This document shows, in pieces, positions 2 through 35,997 of a stretch of 46,190 nucleotides of DNA (the first letter of the stretch is position 1; each line of letters opens with the position of its first letter). Both the position numbers and the translations under genes were made by a program. Under the pieces are notes generated by a model, which was given only the letters and a program-made list of their open reading frames with translations, searched no databases and was not told the origin of the DNA. Source of the DNA: a virus; the IMG/VR virus record IMGVR_UViG_3300024999_000165, positions 1 to 46,190 of that record; one strand, 5' to 3'.

Positions 2-208
2 TTACTCTATTCTGAGGTCGAAAAGAGCAAGGAGGCTCTGAAAAGTGCTATAAAAGCTGAAAAAGACGAATGAGTCAAGAACCAGCTGGTTCAAAGCTAT
101 GACGATATCCAATTACTATGCGCTAAGCTAAAATCCCTGATAGATGAAGATGAGGGATATGAGGAGAAAGAAGAGCCTAAAGTCTTAACTAAGAAGAATG
201 TTCTATAA
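2..208 (+). CDS. 3' part of junction-spanning small protein
   Basis: This is the C-terminal part of a gene that starts at 45865 near the end of the window and crosses the circular junction. Its first bases duplicate the window end. Joining 45865-46190 to 130-208 gives an intact 134-residue reading frame with one in-frame TGA (Gly) at 71-73 and a TAA at 206-208. The product is charged and probably helical, with an acidic tail. It overlaps the terminase start at 198. Its place just before the large terminase could suit a packaging accessory, but I recognise no family. Confidence 0.7.
4..129. repeat. Terminal direct repeat (left copy)
   Basis: These 126 bases are identical to 46065-46190. The reading frame of the junction gene stays intact when one copy is removed. 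The length is typical of an assembler overlap on a circular or circularly permuted molecule. It could instead be a true short terminal repeat, but the repeat sits inside a coding sequence, which favours the overlap explanation. Confidence 0.9.
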
Positions 209-1811
209 TTCACAGCTAGAGAGACAGATATGGGAAAATATAAGGAACAGGGCTAGAATGCTTGATGAGGCAGAGAAAGACCCTGTTCTTCAAGCCTGTA
301 TAATCAGGAAGTGTATGGCAGACCCTGTGTACTTCTTCGAGAACTTCCTATGGACGATGAAGAACGACACCTTCTTCACTAAAGATATGCCTAGGGATAT
401 ACCCTTTATGCCCTTCGAGTACCAGAAAGAGCTGATAAGGAGGATTTGGAAGGATATCCAAGAATGAAAAAACATATTCATAGAGAAATCACGTCAGATG
501 GGTATAACGTGGCTGATGATGGGCGTATTCTACTATTGATTCCTATTTCATAGGCAAAGATACCTCATAGTCTCCCAGAAGCAGGAGTATGTGGACAAGG
601 CTTGAGATATGCGTAGCTGTTTCGAGAAGCTCCGTTATTTCACTCGTCTTATGCCTAAATGGATGCTTCCTGAAGACTTCTCTGCCGATGTATGAACCAG
701 ATGGAACAAATATATGGCTATGTCCTTGCCCGATGGCTCCTCTATTACCTGAGAATCCGCTAACCCTAATGCCTGAACCTGAGGTACCTATCATTGCATA
801 TTCCTAGATGAGATGGCAAAGATGCAGAATGCCAGCCAAATTAACACTGCCTGTGCAGCTGCAACCCCTTGCATAATCTATAACTCCACCCCTCTAGGGG
901 AATGAAACGAATATTACCGGATGAGGCTTAAGGCCAGAGAGTGAAAGATAGACTGAGTGACTCTTCACTGGTCTTTGCACCCTCTTTATGACCAAGCTTG
1001 GTACGACTGGAAGACAGCCTGAATGACTCCTGAGAAGATAGCCCAAGAGCTGGAAATCAGCTACAACGCTTCAGTCGAGTGAGCTGTCTATAAGAGATTC
1101 CACCCGAAGCCAGTATGAGACATAGAGATAGGAGACTTCAGATATGACTATACCCTACCCCTATACTGTTCTATAGACAATTCCCATTGAGGTACGGATA
1201 ATCACGCCATAATAGTATTCCAGACCACTCCTCTATGAAAGATACGCATAATAGACACCATACAGCTTCCGTCCAAGACTTCAATCACCGAATGTGCCTC
1301 TTTCCTTGCTAAGCAACCTATCGCCTGATTCGTTATGGACGATTATACCTTTAATTTCTTCTCTAAGTGGAAGACATACAAGCCAGCAGTATTCATAGCA
1401 GACCCCTATGATACCCACACGACCTGGAACGATACCTCCATAAGCAAGGAATATGCCAAATTCGGGATAAACCTAGTCACTCCTATGACAGTTATGGGTA
1501 CGAAAGGAAATGTAGCCGAACAGATAAGGATTACGCAATCCAACCTTAACAGGCTTGAAGTCAGCGAATGAAGCACAGACTTCATATCCGCCATACAGAA
1601 CGCAAGATACCCTGAAAGGCAAGAGACCTCCCAAAGCACCGCAACCAATTATAAGCCTATACACGATTGGACCTCTCACTTCCGTACAGCTCTGGAATAT
1701 GCCATACTGTTCATAACAGAGCAGGAAGAGCTTAAGCCTAGAGACAGGAAACTCCAGAAGTATGAGATAGGAGACCCTATCACAGGAACTGTAAAAGTTG
1801 TTTACAAATAA
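198..1811 (+). CDS. terL: Terminase large subunit
   Basis: Predicted phage DNA-packaging motor of 537 residues, an ATPase plus nuclease that docks on the portal. The N-terminal ATPase half has a Walker A-like EKSRQMGITW at residues 96-105 and a Walker B IFLDEM with D204 and E205. It is followed by a coupling-type NSTPLGEGNEYY segment. The C-terminal half has an RNase H-like nuclease start, CSIDNSHGGTDNH, with D327, and a second acidic stretch MDDY near residue 380. Many glycines, including one in SHGG, are TGA. The ATG overlaps the preceding gene by 11 bp, and the portal follows after 38 bp. Family assignment is secure; the TerL subfamily is not determined. Confidence 0.93.
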
Positions 1812-10956: not shown

Positions 10957-12924
10957 ATGACAACAAAGGTAAAAACGCTAGACAGAACCCATCTCGTCGG
11001 AGAATGGCTTCTTGACGGTTCGTGAACTGACTCGTCAGGTAATTGAAATAATGGTACTTTGACAAATGTGACATTTACAGATACTTTTCGTGGTTATCAA
11101 AGTCAATGTGGGGTTTTTAATTGAAGCTCGAGCAAAATTACAATCACAGACACACCAATATTGAAGCCCACATGACCATTCACTATTTGAATAAGGGTCA
11201 ATACAAGCTCCTCAGCTAACCAAGGATTTTTCCAGTCTTGGTCTCAATTATGATGATGAGCCTGAGTTCTAGCTTGAATTAGACTCTGGATAGATGCAAG
11301 TGCGTCTCCTGTTTTGATATTCGATATATGAAAAAACACATGAGCAGTCGAGAACGTAGATTGGAAACAATTGACGATAGCATCATCTATTGTAACTGAC
11401 GGAAAACCACATTTCATAGAAGCGAAATACGACTGAACCAAGATGTATTTAATTGTAGATAATAAAGAACAGGCGAATGTTAGTTGGACTTGAAATCCTT
11501 GATACAACGCCACCAATTATATAAGGATATGATGTTTGAATAATAACGGAACCGACCTATTCTACTGAACAGTTTGAACCATCCAGACAGTAAGGCTCGA
11601 TAACGTCGCAACAAACGAAAAAGAACATCAAACAAGATACCAAGAAGGACTTCGCCAACTCTCTTGACAATGATATGGAAGTTTGTTTGATTGACTTGTA
11701 GCACAATACGATTTCCAATGAGATGCACAAGATGTGATAGGAGGAAACAATGGTACTGTGACAGGTACTACACTCACTATAGACCGGTTCGGAATAGCTA
11801 ATAGTGCTTATAGTTTTAATGGGAGTGGTGATTATATAGACTTTGTAAATCCGTCTTTAACAGAACTAACTTATTCTGTATGGTTAAGAATAAATAACAC
11901 AAGTAAAACTAATCATTTTCCACTGTTTTGATGTTGGGGTTCTTGATGATTGTATTTTTCATATAATCATTTAACTTCGTGACAACTTACTGTTTGAAAT
12001 TATTATGCTTGAAGTTGAGATAGAAAAATAGATTGTTGAAGTTTAACTCAATGACAATATTATAATTTAGTATTAACAAGAGATGCTGCTTGAAATTGAA
12101 TCGTATATAAAGACTGAATACAAATAGCTAGTTGAAGTTTATGGTCTATTGGAACGTCAATAACTTGAGCTATATGATGAAGTAGCTGACTATTCGCAGA
12201 ATACATCATTGACAATGCAGAAATATATAATAAAGCAAAAACACCAGAAGAAGTTAAACTCCTCTACCAACTATCCTCAACAACTCCCAACCTACTTCCT
12301 TGGAAATCCAATTTCCCTACAAGCCTCCAGAACTGATTGAAGCTATGGCTTAATGAACAAGGGCGAGACCTCTCTTGAAACGGGAACCACTGAACTCTTG
12401 TGAATTGACCGACTGTGGCAAGAAGGATAGGAGAGAAAGGACTTGATTATAATGGAAGCAATCAATATACGAATCTCCCTAGTATATTAACTCCAACTTG
12501 AGATTTTACTTTTTCTCTTTGGACTCTGGCAACAAACAATAGCCAAACCTGAGATAAGATGCTAATAATAAATCAATTCAATACTACCGCTGTAGGTCAC
12601 GCCATTAGATATAGCGGAGGGAATTTGCAATTTTTGAACAGCAATAATACCGCTTGGGTTTGAGGTTTGGTTGATATAACTGCTGGATATAATCATATAG
12701 TATTAACATACTCATCTTCTGCTGGATATATCCTGTATCTTAATAGTAAGGTATTTGCAACAAGCTCCGCCACTACTACATTCTCTGACCCAAATAGCGA
12801 GAACAAGATATGAGCCTACAGCTCTAATTATTACAATTGAAAAATTACTAATCCGATAATTTTAAATCGAGCACTTTCTCCGCAGGAAGTAGAGGCAGAC
12901 TTTTACGCTACTTTTATAAAATAA
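10957..12924 (+). CDS. Triple LamG/concanavalin-like adhesin
   Basis: A 655-residue protein with three tandem laminin-G/concanavalin-A-like lectin domains, at about residues 10-235, 244-440 and 455-655. Each domain opens with the typ­ical pattern: WLLDGSGTDSSGNGNNG, YDFQGDAQDVIGGNNG and WLNEQGRDLSGNGNHG. Domains of this family bind glycans, so this is a candidate receptor- or surface-binding virion protein. It is followed by a gene of unknown function and then the lysis genes. TGA density is high. The domain call is strong; which glycan is bound is unknown. Confidence 0.8.
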
Positions 12925-31376: not shown

Positions 31377-31388
31377 CCTTAAGGAAAT

Positions 31389-31523
31389 ATGCTGAAATGA
31401 ACTCACGAAAGGCAATGAGAGAACTGAAGATGAGAGATAGAGACTCTCTACAAGACAAAGAAAGGCAAGAAGATGCTGAAGAGGCAATTGCCTGACGGAA
31501 GATGGATAACACTTAAAAACTAA
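31389..31523 (+). CDS. Hypothetical micro-protein
   Basis: A 44-codon frame with several TGA glycines, ending TKKGKKMLKRQLPDGRWITL. That end resembles small phage proteins with an LPDGRW motif. A competing frame (ATG 31397 to TAA 31516, 39 residues, charged) overlaps it fully. I prefer the first because of its ending, but only one is likely real. Confidence 0.4.
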
Positions 31524-31535
31524 TTATAAGATTCC

Positions 31536-31562
31536 TTGACTTTCCTTCAAAAAACATATAAT
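31536..31562 (+). promoter_or_regulatory. Promoter of the modification cassette
   Basis: TTGACT (31536-31541) and TATAAT (31557-31562) with a 15-bp spacer, 32 bp before the HTH-like gene. It lacks the shared A-rich upstream block but matches the -35/-10 spacing. Confidence 0.6.
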
Positions 31563-31594
31563 GAAAACTAAATAACTTTATAAATGCAACAGAA

Positions 31595-31837
31595 ATGATA
31601 GAAATAAGCGTATATAGCCTGCCTCAGATAGCGAAAATGGAATGAATCTGCTATTTGACAGCTTATAAGAGAGCTAAAGCCTGAAGGTACATACAAGTGA
31701 ACTGCGTGTCCAACCAGAAAGGCAATATAGTGAAGAAATATATTCCACCAACAGAGCTCGCCAAGATTTATCAGGCGCTCATATTAATTTCTAAACCCCA
31801 AGACAACTATGTGAAAGCAGATAGAGAAGACTCTTAA
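31595..31837 (+). CDS. Helix-turn-helix-like small protein
   Basis: An 80-residue protein with SLPQIAKMEGICYLTAYKRA followed by a strand and a KYIPPTELAKIY helix. This order resembles small AlpA/MerR-like or Mu-type winged-helix DNA-binding proteins. First gene of the cassette, so it could regulate it. It overlaps the ParB-like gene by 29 bp. Confidence 0.5.
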
Positions 31838-32459
31838 GATAACAGAAATCACACCTTATGCCAAAAACATCAAGAAACACTCTGATGAGCAGATTGAGCA
31901 GATTGCTTGAAGCATTGAACAATTCTGATATATCCAGCCAATATGTGTTGATAGCGATAATACTATCGTTATAGGACACTGAAGGTTCGAAGCTGTAAAA
32001 TACCTATGATGGAAAGAAGTCAAGGTAATAGAGCTGAGCTGATTCAAAGAAGAGGATATAAGAGCCTTGAGAATCGCAGACAACAAGATGAACGAATCCC
32101 CATATGATTTCTCTAACCTGTCCAGTGAGCTTAAGGAGCTTTCAGCCCTATTCGATGTGAAGACGCTGTGATTCACCGATATGGAGCTGGCTAACCTATG
32201 AATCCTTATGGAGACCAAGAAGACAGCCCAAGAGGCAGAAGATTCGCTAGACTCTTTCAGCCTGGACCTGGACGATATAGGAGAGGCTATGGAAAGGCAA
32301 TCGGTTCCCTCTGAGATAATGGGAAGCCAAAATCAGAAGAAGCCCATAACATTCTTCTGCGACAATGAAGAGTATGAGATTCTCTACCCTATATTCGCCA
32401 CCACCAAGAAGTGGGAAGCGAATACACAGCTTTTAATTGAGATGGTTAAAAAAATCTAA
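31809..32459 (+). CDS. ParB/Srx-fold nuclease-like protein
   Basis: A 216-residue protein. Residues 8-100 match the ParB/sulfiredoxin N-terminal domain: LKITEITPYAKNIKKHSD, then IVIGHGRFEAVKYLGWKEV. The GHGR motif is at residues 56-59 with Gly58 from TGA (31980-31982). The C-terminal half is acidic and of unknown fold. ParB-fold proteins in phages act as nucleases or as phosphotransfer enzymes in base-modification clusters. The neighbouring radical SAM and glycosyltransferase genes favour the latter. Confidence 0.75.
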
Positions 32460-33719
32460 ATGTTCACATTCCTACCTGAAAAATACGCCAGCCCACGCTG
32501 GAGCTGAGAGTATATAGACTGCTCTATGCCTATGACATTCGACACCTATTCCAACTGCGGATATGGGTGTCTTTACTGTTTCTCCACTTTCCAAAGAAGC
32601 ATAGGGAAACCTAGGGATAACTACGTGAAGAAGCAAGTAAAGAGGATAAATGTAGACAAAGTGAAAAGGATGTTCTCCGAGCCTGATAAATTCGGATGAC
32701 AGTTCAAAGACTACATAAAGTGAAAGTACGTATTGCAATGGGGATGACTCTCAGACCCTATGTGTCCTATCGAGGAAGACGGATGAGCAGGATTGGAAAT
32801 GATGCAGTTCTTCAACGATATAGAGTACCCTGTGAGGTTTTCCAGCAAATCAGACCTTATACTGAGGGATGACAGGTATCTCAAGGAATTCGCGAGATGA
32901 AAGGACAGATTCGCATATATGGCATCTATCATCACTTATGATGAACAGGTGGCCAAAAGGATAGAGGCTTGAGTTCCTACCCCCCAAAGAAGGATGGAAG
33001 TATTGAAGACCCTGTCTGACGTATGAGTATGGACTGTCCTCAGGCTGAGACCTTATATAATAGGTGTTACAGACAGGACGATAAAGGATACTATCAATGC
33101 AGCGTGAGCCGCAGGGGTGAAAGCTTGCTCTACCGAATTCTTCTGCGTAGAGTCACGCAGCACTCCAGAGATAAGGAGAAAATTCAAAGGGATTAGCGAT
33201 GAATGCTGATTCGATATATTCGAGATGTACCGACAGCACAGCAACACCAACTGATATATGAGGCTGAGCAAGAAATTCACACAGCCATATATGGATGAGC
33301 TTAAGAAGCTATGCGACAAGAACAATATACTCTTAGCCAGCTCAGACCCTAAGCACAAGGAGGTGAACTTCTCCAACTCTTGCTGCGGACTGCCTAACGC
33401 CTGAGTGTTCGCACAGGTCCACAGAGGTCAGTACCTTCCGGCAATCAACCTAGCCAAGATAAAATGATACGTTACCTGGGATGACCTGGAGAAGGTAAGC
33501 ATACTCAAGGACGTTAAGTTCTGACAGGCTGATGGGCTGAACCAATGAAGCTGAAAGCTAAGAGCCAGATACTGAGACCTGAGCATAAGTGATAAGATAA
33601 AGGAATTCTGGAACAACCCTAAGAGTGCCAATAGCCCATATAAGCTATTCGAGTGACTCCTAGAGCCTAAGTGAGTAGACCAGAAATGAAACATAATCTA
33701 CCTGTACAAATGAAGATAA
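32460..33719 (+). CDS. Radical SAM enzyme
   Basis: A 419-residue protein with a CX3CX2C cluster motif, CGYGCLYC, at C33, C37 and C40. This is the 4Fe-4S site that activates S-adenosylmethionine. A GG-containing strand (LQWGGLSDPMCP) and RFSSKSDLIL follow as in radical SAM barrels, and the layout recalls spore-photoproduct-lyase-like members. More cysteines (CGFD, SCCG) lie in the C-terminal part. It starts directly after the ParB-like stop and overlaps the glycosyltransferase gene. A role in modifying DNA bases is inferred from the neighbours. Confidence 0.8.
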
Positions 33720-34447
33720 ACATAGCCATACCAAGCCACAACAGAGTGGATATGCTCAAGGAGAAGACCCTCAAGCTCTTAGAATGATTATGAGAGATAA
33801 CCATATTCGCCAACCCCAAGGGGGAGGCGGATAAGTACCGCAAGGAATTCCCCGATATCAGGATAGTGGAGATAGAGGAATTCAGCTGAATGGGTAAGCT
33901 TAGGGCGGATATACTATCTCATTATCAAGAGTGAGACTATATCCTTATGGTAGACGATGACATCTGAGAGCTTAAGCAGCTCACTACCGGAAAGTGCAAG
34001 CTCAGGACCCTCGATAAGCAGGCAGTATACCAGTTCATCTATCAGGCATTCGATGCCCTGCAAGAGAAAGGCAAGAAGCTATGGGGAGTATGCCCTACCG
34101 ACAACCCTTTCTATATGTCTGATAAGGTGTGCAACAATAAGTTCATCATCTGATGCTTTATGGGTTTAATCAAGACTGACCTGGAATTCGACCCAGAGAT
34201 ATACTGAAAGGAAGACTACGACTTCACTATGCAGAACATACTATGCTTCGGATGAGTAGACAGATATGACTATATAACCACCGACAACAAGTACTGAACG
34301 ACCAAAGGAGGACTGCAAGATACCAGCAGAGCGAATATAGCCCAGAGGGACATACAGGTATTGAAGAGCAAATACGGCTCGATGATTAAAGACAACCCCC
34401 GAAGAGAGAACGAGATACTCCTAGACGTAAAGAGATACTGATGATAG
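33710..34447 (+). CDS. TET-associated-type glycosyltransferase
   Basis: A 245-residue GT-A-fold protein: INIAIPSHNR at the N terminus, ILMVDDDIGEL with D82-D84 as the metal/sugar-nucleotide DxD, LWGVCPTDNPFYM, GCFMGLIKTDLEF, KEDYDFTMQN and a final GGLQD. This motif series fits the glycosyltransferases found with phage DNA hypermodification systems (TAGT family), which put sugars on modified bases. It overlaps the radical SAM gene by 10 bp. Confidence 0.7.
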
Positions 34448-34511
34448 GCAAAAAGCCCTTTTATGATATAAAGAGAGGAGAAGGAATATTAACCATTAAC
34501 TTCTAAGGCAG

Positions 34512-34979
34512 ATGATTATAGCATTCGATGTAGACGACACCCTCATAGTACCAGCAGTAGCCACAGGGCTTCCAATAGACACTCCTAACTACGAGAACAT
34601 AGCAATGTACAGATGGTTCCAATCGCAATGACACACGATGGTGGTATGGAGCTGAGGATGAACAGACTATGCCAAGCACTGGGCAGATAAGCTATGACTG
34701 GAGCCTCACTACATATGGGAGAAGCAAGACAGATGAGAAGCCTGAAGACCTGACATATGCTTCGATGACTGCGATGTAGACCTGGCTAAGGTGAATCTTA
34801 AGGTAAAGAGGCTGAATAACAGGATAAGCAGAAAAGAATGGAATAATTTACAACATAATACAATCAGACTATGGAATATCAAGAAATATTATCATTTGTT
34901 AAAAGGATGAAACAAGTACATCTATGAGATGATAAAGAAATATATGATGCTGAAACTGAACAGAAAGAAAAACAATTAA
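34512..34979 (+). CDS. HAD-superfamily hydrolase
   Basis: A 155-residue protein with IIAFDVDDTL (nucleophile D6, acid/base D8), VVWSGGG as motif II and RPDICFDDCD as the C-terminal acidic motif. These are the HAD phosphatase hallmarks. It probably removes phosphate from a small substrate or modified nucleotide in the same cassette. The last 36 residues overlap another plausible frame (34871-35074), so the true C terminus may be shorter. Confidence 0.75.
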
Positions 34980-35270: not shown

Positions 35271-35495
35271 ATGGAACTAATAAGCATTTGAACGAAATGT
35301 AAGACTAAGATAGGAGGATATGAGTGAATCATAACAGAGATATGGATAAAATGAGATGCCATATTATACAATGTATCCTATAATCAAGACTGATTAAAAA
35401 ACCTATTCTTCTATGAGATTGAACTAGATCTAGAAGATACAAAGAAAGAAACTATATGATTTAAAATACAAGAAAATGGCAAGAGCAAAGCATAA
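35271..35495 (+). CDS. Hypothetical small beta-rich protein
   Basis: A 74-residue protein with alternating beta-type strands (GGYEGIITEIWIKGDAILY), perhaps a small SH3-like or KOW-like barrel. It overlaps the small-terminase-like gene by 20 bp. Function unknown. Confidence 0.55.
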
Positions 35496-35997
35496 CTGGA
35501 CAGAGATAAGAGCAGCCTATATGAAATCGGATGCAATAGATGTTGCACCATTCACTAGGGAGAACTATGGAATTGATACAACAGGGTGAAATGGCGCTAA
35601 TCAGGTCAAATGATGGAGAGAGGAGAAGCTAGCTATGCTAGAGAGAGCCAAAGCAAAAGCCTTAGAGGAAACAGAGGCTAAGATGGTAGAGATATACAAG
35701 CCATCTATGGAAGAGCTGTCAGAGATGCACAAAGGTATCAACCTATTATTCAAGGCAAGCATCAAGAAGGCTATAAAGGACAGCATAGACTCCAAGACCT
35801 GAGAGGTATTGGTCAACCCTAACATCTATGAGCTGGAGAAGCTCTGGAAGATAATAAAGACAGAGAAGTGAGAGCCTACCAGCAACATAAAGCAAGAGAC
35901 TAAGGTAACCTGAACCCTAGAGGTCAAAGACATATCTAAGATGACGGACGAAGAGGTGGATGAGTACGTGAAAAATAAGTTGAAATCTCAGCCATAA
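35476..35997 (+). CDS. Terminase small subunit-like protein
   Basis: A 173-residue protein opening RAKHNWTEIRAAYMKS, with GWREEKLAMLERAKAKALEE and a helical centre, then an acidic/basic C terminus. The N-terminal helix-turn-helix-like region and the order resemble phage small terminases, which recognise packaging sites and feed DNA to the large subunit. It lies next to the late tail genes rather than beside terL, and the circular map puts about 10 kb between them. The assignment is by pattern. Confidence 0.55.

Follow-up and report, generated by a model that had tools for sequence, protein, structure and literature searches.

A ParB and radical SAM gene pair as a candidate oxygen-independent counterpart of TET/JBP in phage DNA hypermodification cassettes

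The stretch of DNA analysed here, referred to as the window, is an entire virus record of 46,190 bases. It encodes a terminase, a portal protein, Erf and other phage genes, and yields long collinear ORFs once TGA is taken as a sense codon, with 310 in-frame TGA codons across 16 of its genes. With TGA read as glycine (table 25), four clean and abutting ORFs emerge at 31809-34979, and the earlier note's description of four packed genes (ParB-N, radical SAM, TET-associated-type glycosyltransferase and HAD-like protein) holds under this code, with the genes running head to tail (Table 1). Table 11 and the reading of TAG as glutamine were rejected, as they give short ORFs only in the cassette region. 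Reading TGA as tryptophan opens identical frames, but code-11 relatives of the radical SAM protein have glycine at the aligned sites of its 21 TGA codons in 57% (mean), and tryptophan in 0%. The loci L002-L005 also use TGA as glycine. Code 25 is the code of Absconditabacteria (SR1) and Gracilibacteria, and the host of the window phage is probably a code-25 bacterium.

Table 1. Genes of the cassette region and packaging genes of the window
Feature	Coordinates	Strand	Evidence and remarks
Terminase large subunit (context)	198..1811	+	phrog_2 E 3e-25
Unassigned 80-aa ORF	31595..31837	+	overlaps ParB gene; helix-turn-helix-like by eye
ParB-N (ParB/Srx fold) protein, 216 aa	31809..32459	+	PF02195 E 7.6e-8; PHROG 620 ParB-like E 6e-44
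Radical SAM enzyme (rSAM), 419 aa	32460..33719	+	PF04055 E 2.7e-8
TET-associated-type glycosyltransferase (TAGT), 245 aa	33710..34447	+	from ATG; GTG 33671 possible; PF20691 E 4.9e-15
HAD-like protein, 155 aa	34512..34979	+	HAD matches below cut-offs
Probable terminase small subunit (context)	35476..35997	+	phrog_6299 E 4.7e-4; homologues in L002-L005

The 80-aa ORF had no match in Pfam, PHROG or NCBIfam. Its counterpart precedes ParB in L002 as well (68% identity over 50 aa), and it is probably co-transcribed with the ParB gene. The earlier note had placed the cassette behind one promoter, which is no more than a possibility: no sigma-70-like plus-strand site is listed upstream of 31595, and the region has about as many such sites as shuffled sequence does. 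By eye, TTGACT and TATAAT can be made out 15 nt apart. RNA structure in the leader (31377-31594) was not unusual (z 0.03).

The family assignments of the first three cassette genes exceed their Pfam cut-offs, with 32.7 bits for ParB_N (cut-off 26.3), 34.6 bits for Radical_SAM (cut-off 29.5) and 56.4 bits for TAGT (cut-off 27.5). The ParB gene abuts that of the rSAM, and its product may be the DNA-targeting partner of this enzyme. R12, D83, D169, G200 and G201 are invariant in the TAGT alignment, and the predicted TAGT model (pLDDT 89.2) is GT-A-like. The earlier note had named clustering with protein or glycan families as a finding that would speak against its reading of the glycosyltransferase; no such clustering was seen by sequence, where GT2 scored 14 bits, below its cut-off. 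The fold itself is generic GT-A, and the top structural matches are UDP-sugar enzymes, including wall teichoic acid transferases. Sequence family points to transfer of a sugar to a base handle as the probable function of TAGT. The fourth gene, which had been counted as a phosphatase of the cassette, fared less well. Its HAD score is 13.5 against a cut-off of 27, and its ortholog was seen only in L002, a near-identical phage, where it lies about 770 bases away from TAGT; it was rejected as a conserved cassette part, and it is doubtful that it belongs to the cassette.

Elsewhere in the window, the product of a gene at 23694-24038 carries at its N terminus a methylation motif like that of type IV pilins (MRKGFTLIELLVVITILG), and PF07963 matches one window ORF. 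An SPFH/Band 7 protein (22910-23767) adjoins this gene. At 24776-27097, a VWA-like protein comes after an AAA_5 (MoxR-like) ATPase, and the two form a pair of the chaperone type. A long protein of the structural region (10957-12924) has a probable Laminin_G_3/lectin-like match.

Viral contigs were searched with the window rSAM and with an alignment as queries, giving 134 and 163 contigs, respectively, with the top 80 retained in each case; the family statistics are based on the best 80 of the 134. The CX3CX2C motif (C33, C37, C40) as well as C21, C229, C308 and C309 are invariant in all 80 relatives. Among 47 two-flank loci, ParB was found near the rSAM gene in 41, a P-loop kinase in 28, an amino acid:DNA transferase (ADDT) in 20, a phage AdoMet synthetase in 18, GNAT in 16 and TAGT in 11. 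The identity of ADDT had been doubted because of one member below the cut-off, and this doubt was overturned by a scan of 24 members, 21 of which match PF18724 (best E 7e-18). Since the same parts recur round the rSAM gene in many viral contigs, the arrangement in the window is not a matter of chance. The packaging genes lie downstream of the cassette in the window and in its relatives. TAGT as a query found no relatives among the viral contigs, and no plasmid carried the rSAM at E 1e-20.

The 5hmU-type P-loop kinase with ADDT, and TAGT, are two alternative modules beside the ParB-rSAM pair. TAGT alone was found in 11 of the two-flank loci, kinase and/or ADDT alone in 30, both in none and neither in six (Fisher p 7e-7, relatedness of the loci being uncorrected); the single-flank locus L070 carries TAGT as well as the kinase/ADDT module. 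On a tree of 103 rSAM sequences, at least 18 module changes are needed over 86 labelled rows, and within the code-25 clade the kinase is found in L004 and TAGT in L005. Three pairs of near-identical rSAMs stand beside opposite modules, namely L047/L097 (95%), L067/L071 (93%) and L025/L028 (93%). Since rSAMs of 93-95% identity are found with opposite modules, it is most likely that the step of the rSAM precedes the TAGT as well as the kinase/ADDT steps.

Several of these loci hold further proteins. A second, shorter radical SAM protein lies near the cassette rSAM in L003 (12241-13077), L004 (3618-4631) and L041 (4903-5760). Upstream of TAGT in L025 (1000-2000) is a weakly APH/choline kinase-like protein, whose cluster is also present in L047, L057 and L067 and which possibly serves in sugar or base tailoring. 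ADDT-type cassettes include a GATase_6 (glutamine amidotransferase)-like protein (L074, 7261-7911; cluster also in L037, L075 and L076), and within the kinase ORF of L022 (6657-7439) a unit of about 30 residues (RYGGVDRITND...) is repeated almost unchanged.

The structure of the window rSAM was predicted with a pLDDT of 93.2. Its best match in the PDB is spore photoproduct lyase (SPL; 4fhf, Z 20.3, rmsd 3.0 over 260 residues), followed by SuiB (Z 16.5). The two proteins share the predicted fold, the CX3CX2C motif, a remote profile similarity (E 1.5e-4 with clostridial SPL) and, in the case of clostridial SPL, a cysteine upstream of the motif. They differ in that the structural alignment gives only about 11% identity, the window rSAM is unmatched by the Pfam SPL family (PF20903) at E <= 1 and, unlike SPL, it is located in a phage modification operon. 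A Selenomonas relative of the rSAM reaches E 0.002 with PF20903, below the cut-off, and PDB sequence searches with the rSAM, TAGT and M6 gp53 as queries gave nothing useful. The position of C141 of B. subtilis SPL is occupied by G or L in the rSAM family, which has no cysteine of this type. In two MAFFT runs, and hence by sequence alignment only, C21 aligned with the C74-type cysteine of C. acetobutylicum SPL. Alignment with this catalytic cysteine would favour hydrogen return over net oxidation, and would speak against hydroxylation; C21 may serve in hydrogen return, adduct formation or electron relay. The SPL reaction passes via a thymine allylic radical in DNA. In the C141A mutant this radical is captured as TpTSO2-, and in SPL without the donor cysteine it is an external agent that captures it (PMC3742179, PMC5368176).

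ParB_N and SPL-like folds perform partition and DNA repair elsewhere, and teichoic acid transferases are among the structural matches of TAGT. One could hence read the locus as a set of unlinked functions, in which the SPL-like enzyme repairs DNA, ParB serves plasmid partition and the glycosyltransferase alters host surface glycans. We regard this as very improbable in view of the clustering, which is conserved in many phages, the match to the TAGT family, the strict alternation with kinase/ADDT, the parallel TET cassettes described below and the lack of a Pfam SPL match for the window rSAM.

Profile searches of the window record found no homologue of TET/JBP, C5-methyltransferase or thymidylate synthase, in agreement with the earlier note, and a Pfam scan of the other 49 window ORFs revealed no base-modifying enzyme among the 25 of 29 families listed. 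The same holds more widely, as Tet_JBP and thymidylate synthase (PF00303) were each found in none of 43 rSAM records, the window record included in the profile search for Tet_JBP. The TET search detected its positive controls: Indlovu, Prairie and S-CBWM1 each gave a match adjacent to TAGT. C5-methyltransferase occurs in merely six of the 43, which suggests that prior 5mC is not generally needed. Because many viral records are fragments, such gene absences are indications rather than proof.

TET phages of aerobes have the same parts, arranged as ParB-TET-TAGT or ParB-TET-ADDT-kinase. Among 80 TET viral contigs, ParB is present in 59, ADDT in 41 and TAGT in 15, ADDT and TAGT never co-occur, and neither the rSAM nor AdoMet synthetase was found in any. 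The rSAM was also absent at E 0.001 from nine TET or M6 phage records. HMMs built from the rSAM loci match the parts of isolate phages: TAGT those of S-CBWM1, Prairie and Indlovu (E 5e-46 to 9e-29), ADDT the gene 3 products of MossRose (1e-20) and Prince (2e-11), and ParB those of Terij, MossRose and Prince (E 1e-17 to 5e-12). In the isolates whose TAGTs are nearest, Tet_JBP adjoins TAGT, and ParB is close by in Indlovu and Prairie. Prince has, in order, ParB, an annotated 'thymidine hydroxylase', a 'DNA glycosylase', a kinase and the terminase, and MossRose likewise has the ADDT version. A possible thymidine hypermodification system of the order ParB, tet-like, aGPT-Pplase2 and 5hmU kinase is found in Rhodococcus phage Tonitrus (PMC11955845). 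In the rSAM cassettes, the rSAM gene takes the place of TET among these common parts. With TAGT over its cut-off and ParB, TAGT, ADDT and kinase shared with the TET cassettes, the suggestion that the gene set is a phage DNA base-hypermodification cassette is well supported, and we hold it with high confidence. That the ParB-rSAM pair replaces TET/JBP as the handle-making step, independently of oxygen, appears to us probable, with less assurance.

The rSAM could instead be a late tailoring enzyme acting on a hydroxymethyl base that another enzyme, of phage or host and so far undetected, supplies. Among rSAMs, the nearest functional analogue known to us is that of Pseudomonas phage M6, which is a tailoring enzyme. 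M6 encodes gp54, annotated as 'terminase small subunit' and which we take to be a 5hmU kinase, the rSAM gp53, annotated as 'DNA repair photolyase', and gp58, a thymidylate synthase homologue. The kinase profile of the rSAM loci matches gp54 (E 9e-14). When 20 proteins were searched, the rSAM profile matched gp53 at E 4.5e-7; a search of the M6 genome with it at E 0.001 gave no match. With the ADDT profile, gp55 was not significant and gp51 weak, and the M6 ADDT gene was not identified. Late tailoring sits poorly with the absence of TET and of a thymidylate synthase homologue in the 43 rSAM records, with TAGT loci that have no amino-acid adduct to tailor, and with near-identical rSAMs that serve either module; we consider it unlikely.

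Full-length rSAM matches in bacterial and archaeal genomes came from Bacteroides, Prevotella, Phocaeicola, Lachnospiraceae, Selenomonas, Oscillospiraceae, Victivallales, Spirochaetaceae and similar taxa. By record title these are mostly gut and rumen MAGs and other anaerobic lineages, with one hot-spring MAG, and the hosts of rSAM cassettes that can be named are anaerobes. The 92 Prairie-type TET phages have Mycobacterium, Microbacterium, Arthrobacter, Gordonia, cyanobacteria, Rhodococcus and Stenotrophomonas as hosts. This contrast, which is sampling-biased on both sides, fits an O2-independent substitute for TET. The source metagenomes of rSAM and TET contigs (60 and 73 ids) share none, which counts for little, as few shared ids would be expected by chance. 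The cassette was also seen on chromosomal contigs of Bacteroides fragilis S82 (L088) and of the rumen species Selenomonas ruminantium S137 (L105), probably as prophages; the S. ruminantium one would be a convenient test system.

In the mechanism that we propose, the cassette would act after replication, on the bases of DNA, which ParB may position or target. On its SPL-like scaffold, the rSAM would use SAM and a [4Fe-4S] cluster to form a 5'-deoxyadenosyl radical, and this would take hydrogen off a pyrimidine methyl, most likely that of thymine. The radical site would then be turned into a reactive handle, most simply 5-hydroxymethyl, onto which TAGT, going by its family, would add a sugar. 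The rSAM would thus be an O2-free stand-in for the Fe(II)/2-oxoglutarate TET/JBP enzymes of homologous cassettes in phages of aerobes. The enzymes known to us that oxidise the methyl group in DNA, be it on thymine or on 5-methylcytosine, all use O2. Methyl hydroxylation by an rSAM would be unusual, and a different handle is possible. That the rSAM specifically hydroxylates thymine is a tentative proposal, to which we give a little less than even credence. The wider reading, in which an SPL-like rSAM with ParB would functionalise (hydroxylate) the thymine methyl in DNA without oxygen, as a widespread anaerobic counterpart of TET/JBP that feeds glycosylation or aminoacylation in phages of anaerobes and, in the window, even in one with a code-25 host, is likewise plausible but held just short of an even chance.

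The different handle could lie on cytosine or 5-methylcytosine, or be an amino, thio or carbon-linked group, with TAGT acting next. Phages do use handles other than hydroxymethyl, one example being 5-carboxymethylcytosine, where a ParBc protein is encoded close by (PMC12783734), and the six rSAM records with a C5-methyltransferase would suit a cytosine base. However, a C5-methyltransferase is missing from most rSAM records, the substrate of SPL is thymine, and two 5hmU-pathway enzymes, kinase and ADDT, occupy the same position as TAGT, which makes a handle other than 5-hydroxymethylthymine improbable. The earlier note's view that base and chemistry could be new can be made more precise: the rSAM takes the place of TET/JBP and the route would be new; the end product need not be, and is possibly of a known type such as glycosylated 5-hydroxymethyl-dU. 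If the proposal is true, replacement by the rSAM would explain DNA hypermodification by phages of strict anaerobes, offer a new DNA-editing chemistry with a concrete enzyme to assay, and tie the fold of a repair enzyme to base modification.

Three known systems invite comparison. Thymidine hypermodification in M6 (5-NedU) shares with the relatives of the window a homologous P-loop kinase and a distantly similar rSAM. It differs in that it starts from a thymidylate synthase homologue and its rSAM is only remotely similar; the window in turn uses TAGT and has neither 5hmU kinase nor ADDT in its cassette, although both are present in many of its relatives. Base J synthesis by JBP1/2 and a glucosyltransferase resembles our proposal in that the thymine methyl is functionalised and then glycosylated, and differs in that JBP is an O2-dependent dioxygenase. 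The third comparison is with the ParB-TET cassettes of the actinobacteriophages Indlovu, Prairie, Prince, MossRose and Tonitrus and with the TET-TAGT pair of Synechococcus phage S-CBWM1, in which ParB, TAGT and ADDT are homologous to those of the rSAM cassettes and the sugar or amino-acid modules are likewise alternatives, often beside the terminase. Unlike these, the rSAM cassettes have an rSAM in place of the O2-dependent Tet_JBP, often add a phage AdoMet synthetase and, where the hosts are known, belong to phages of anaerobes.
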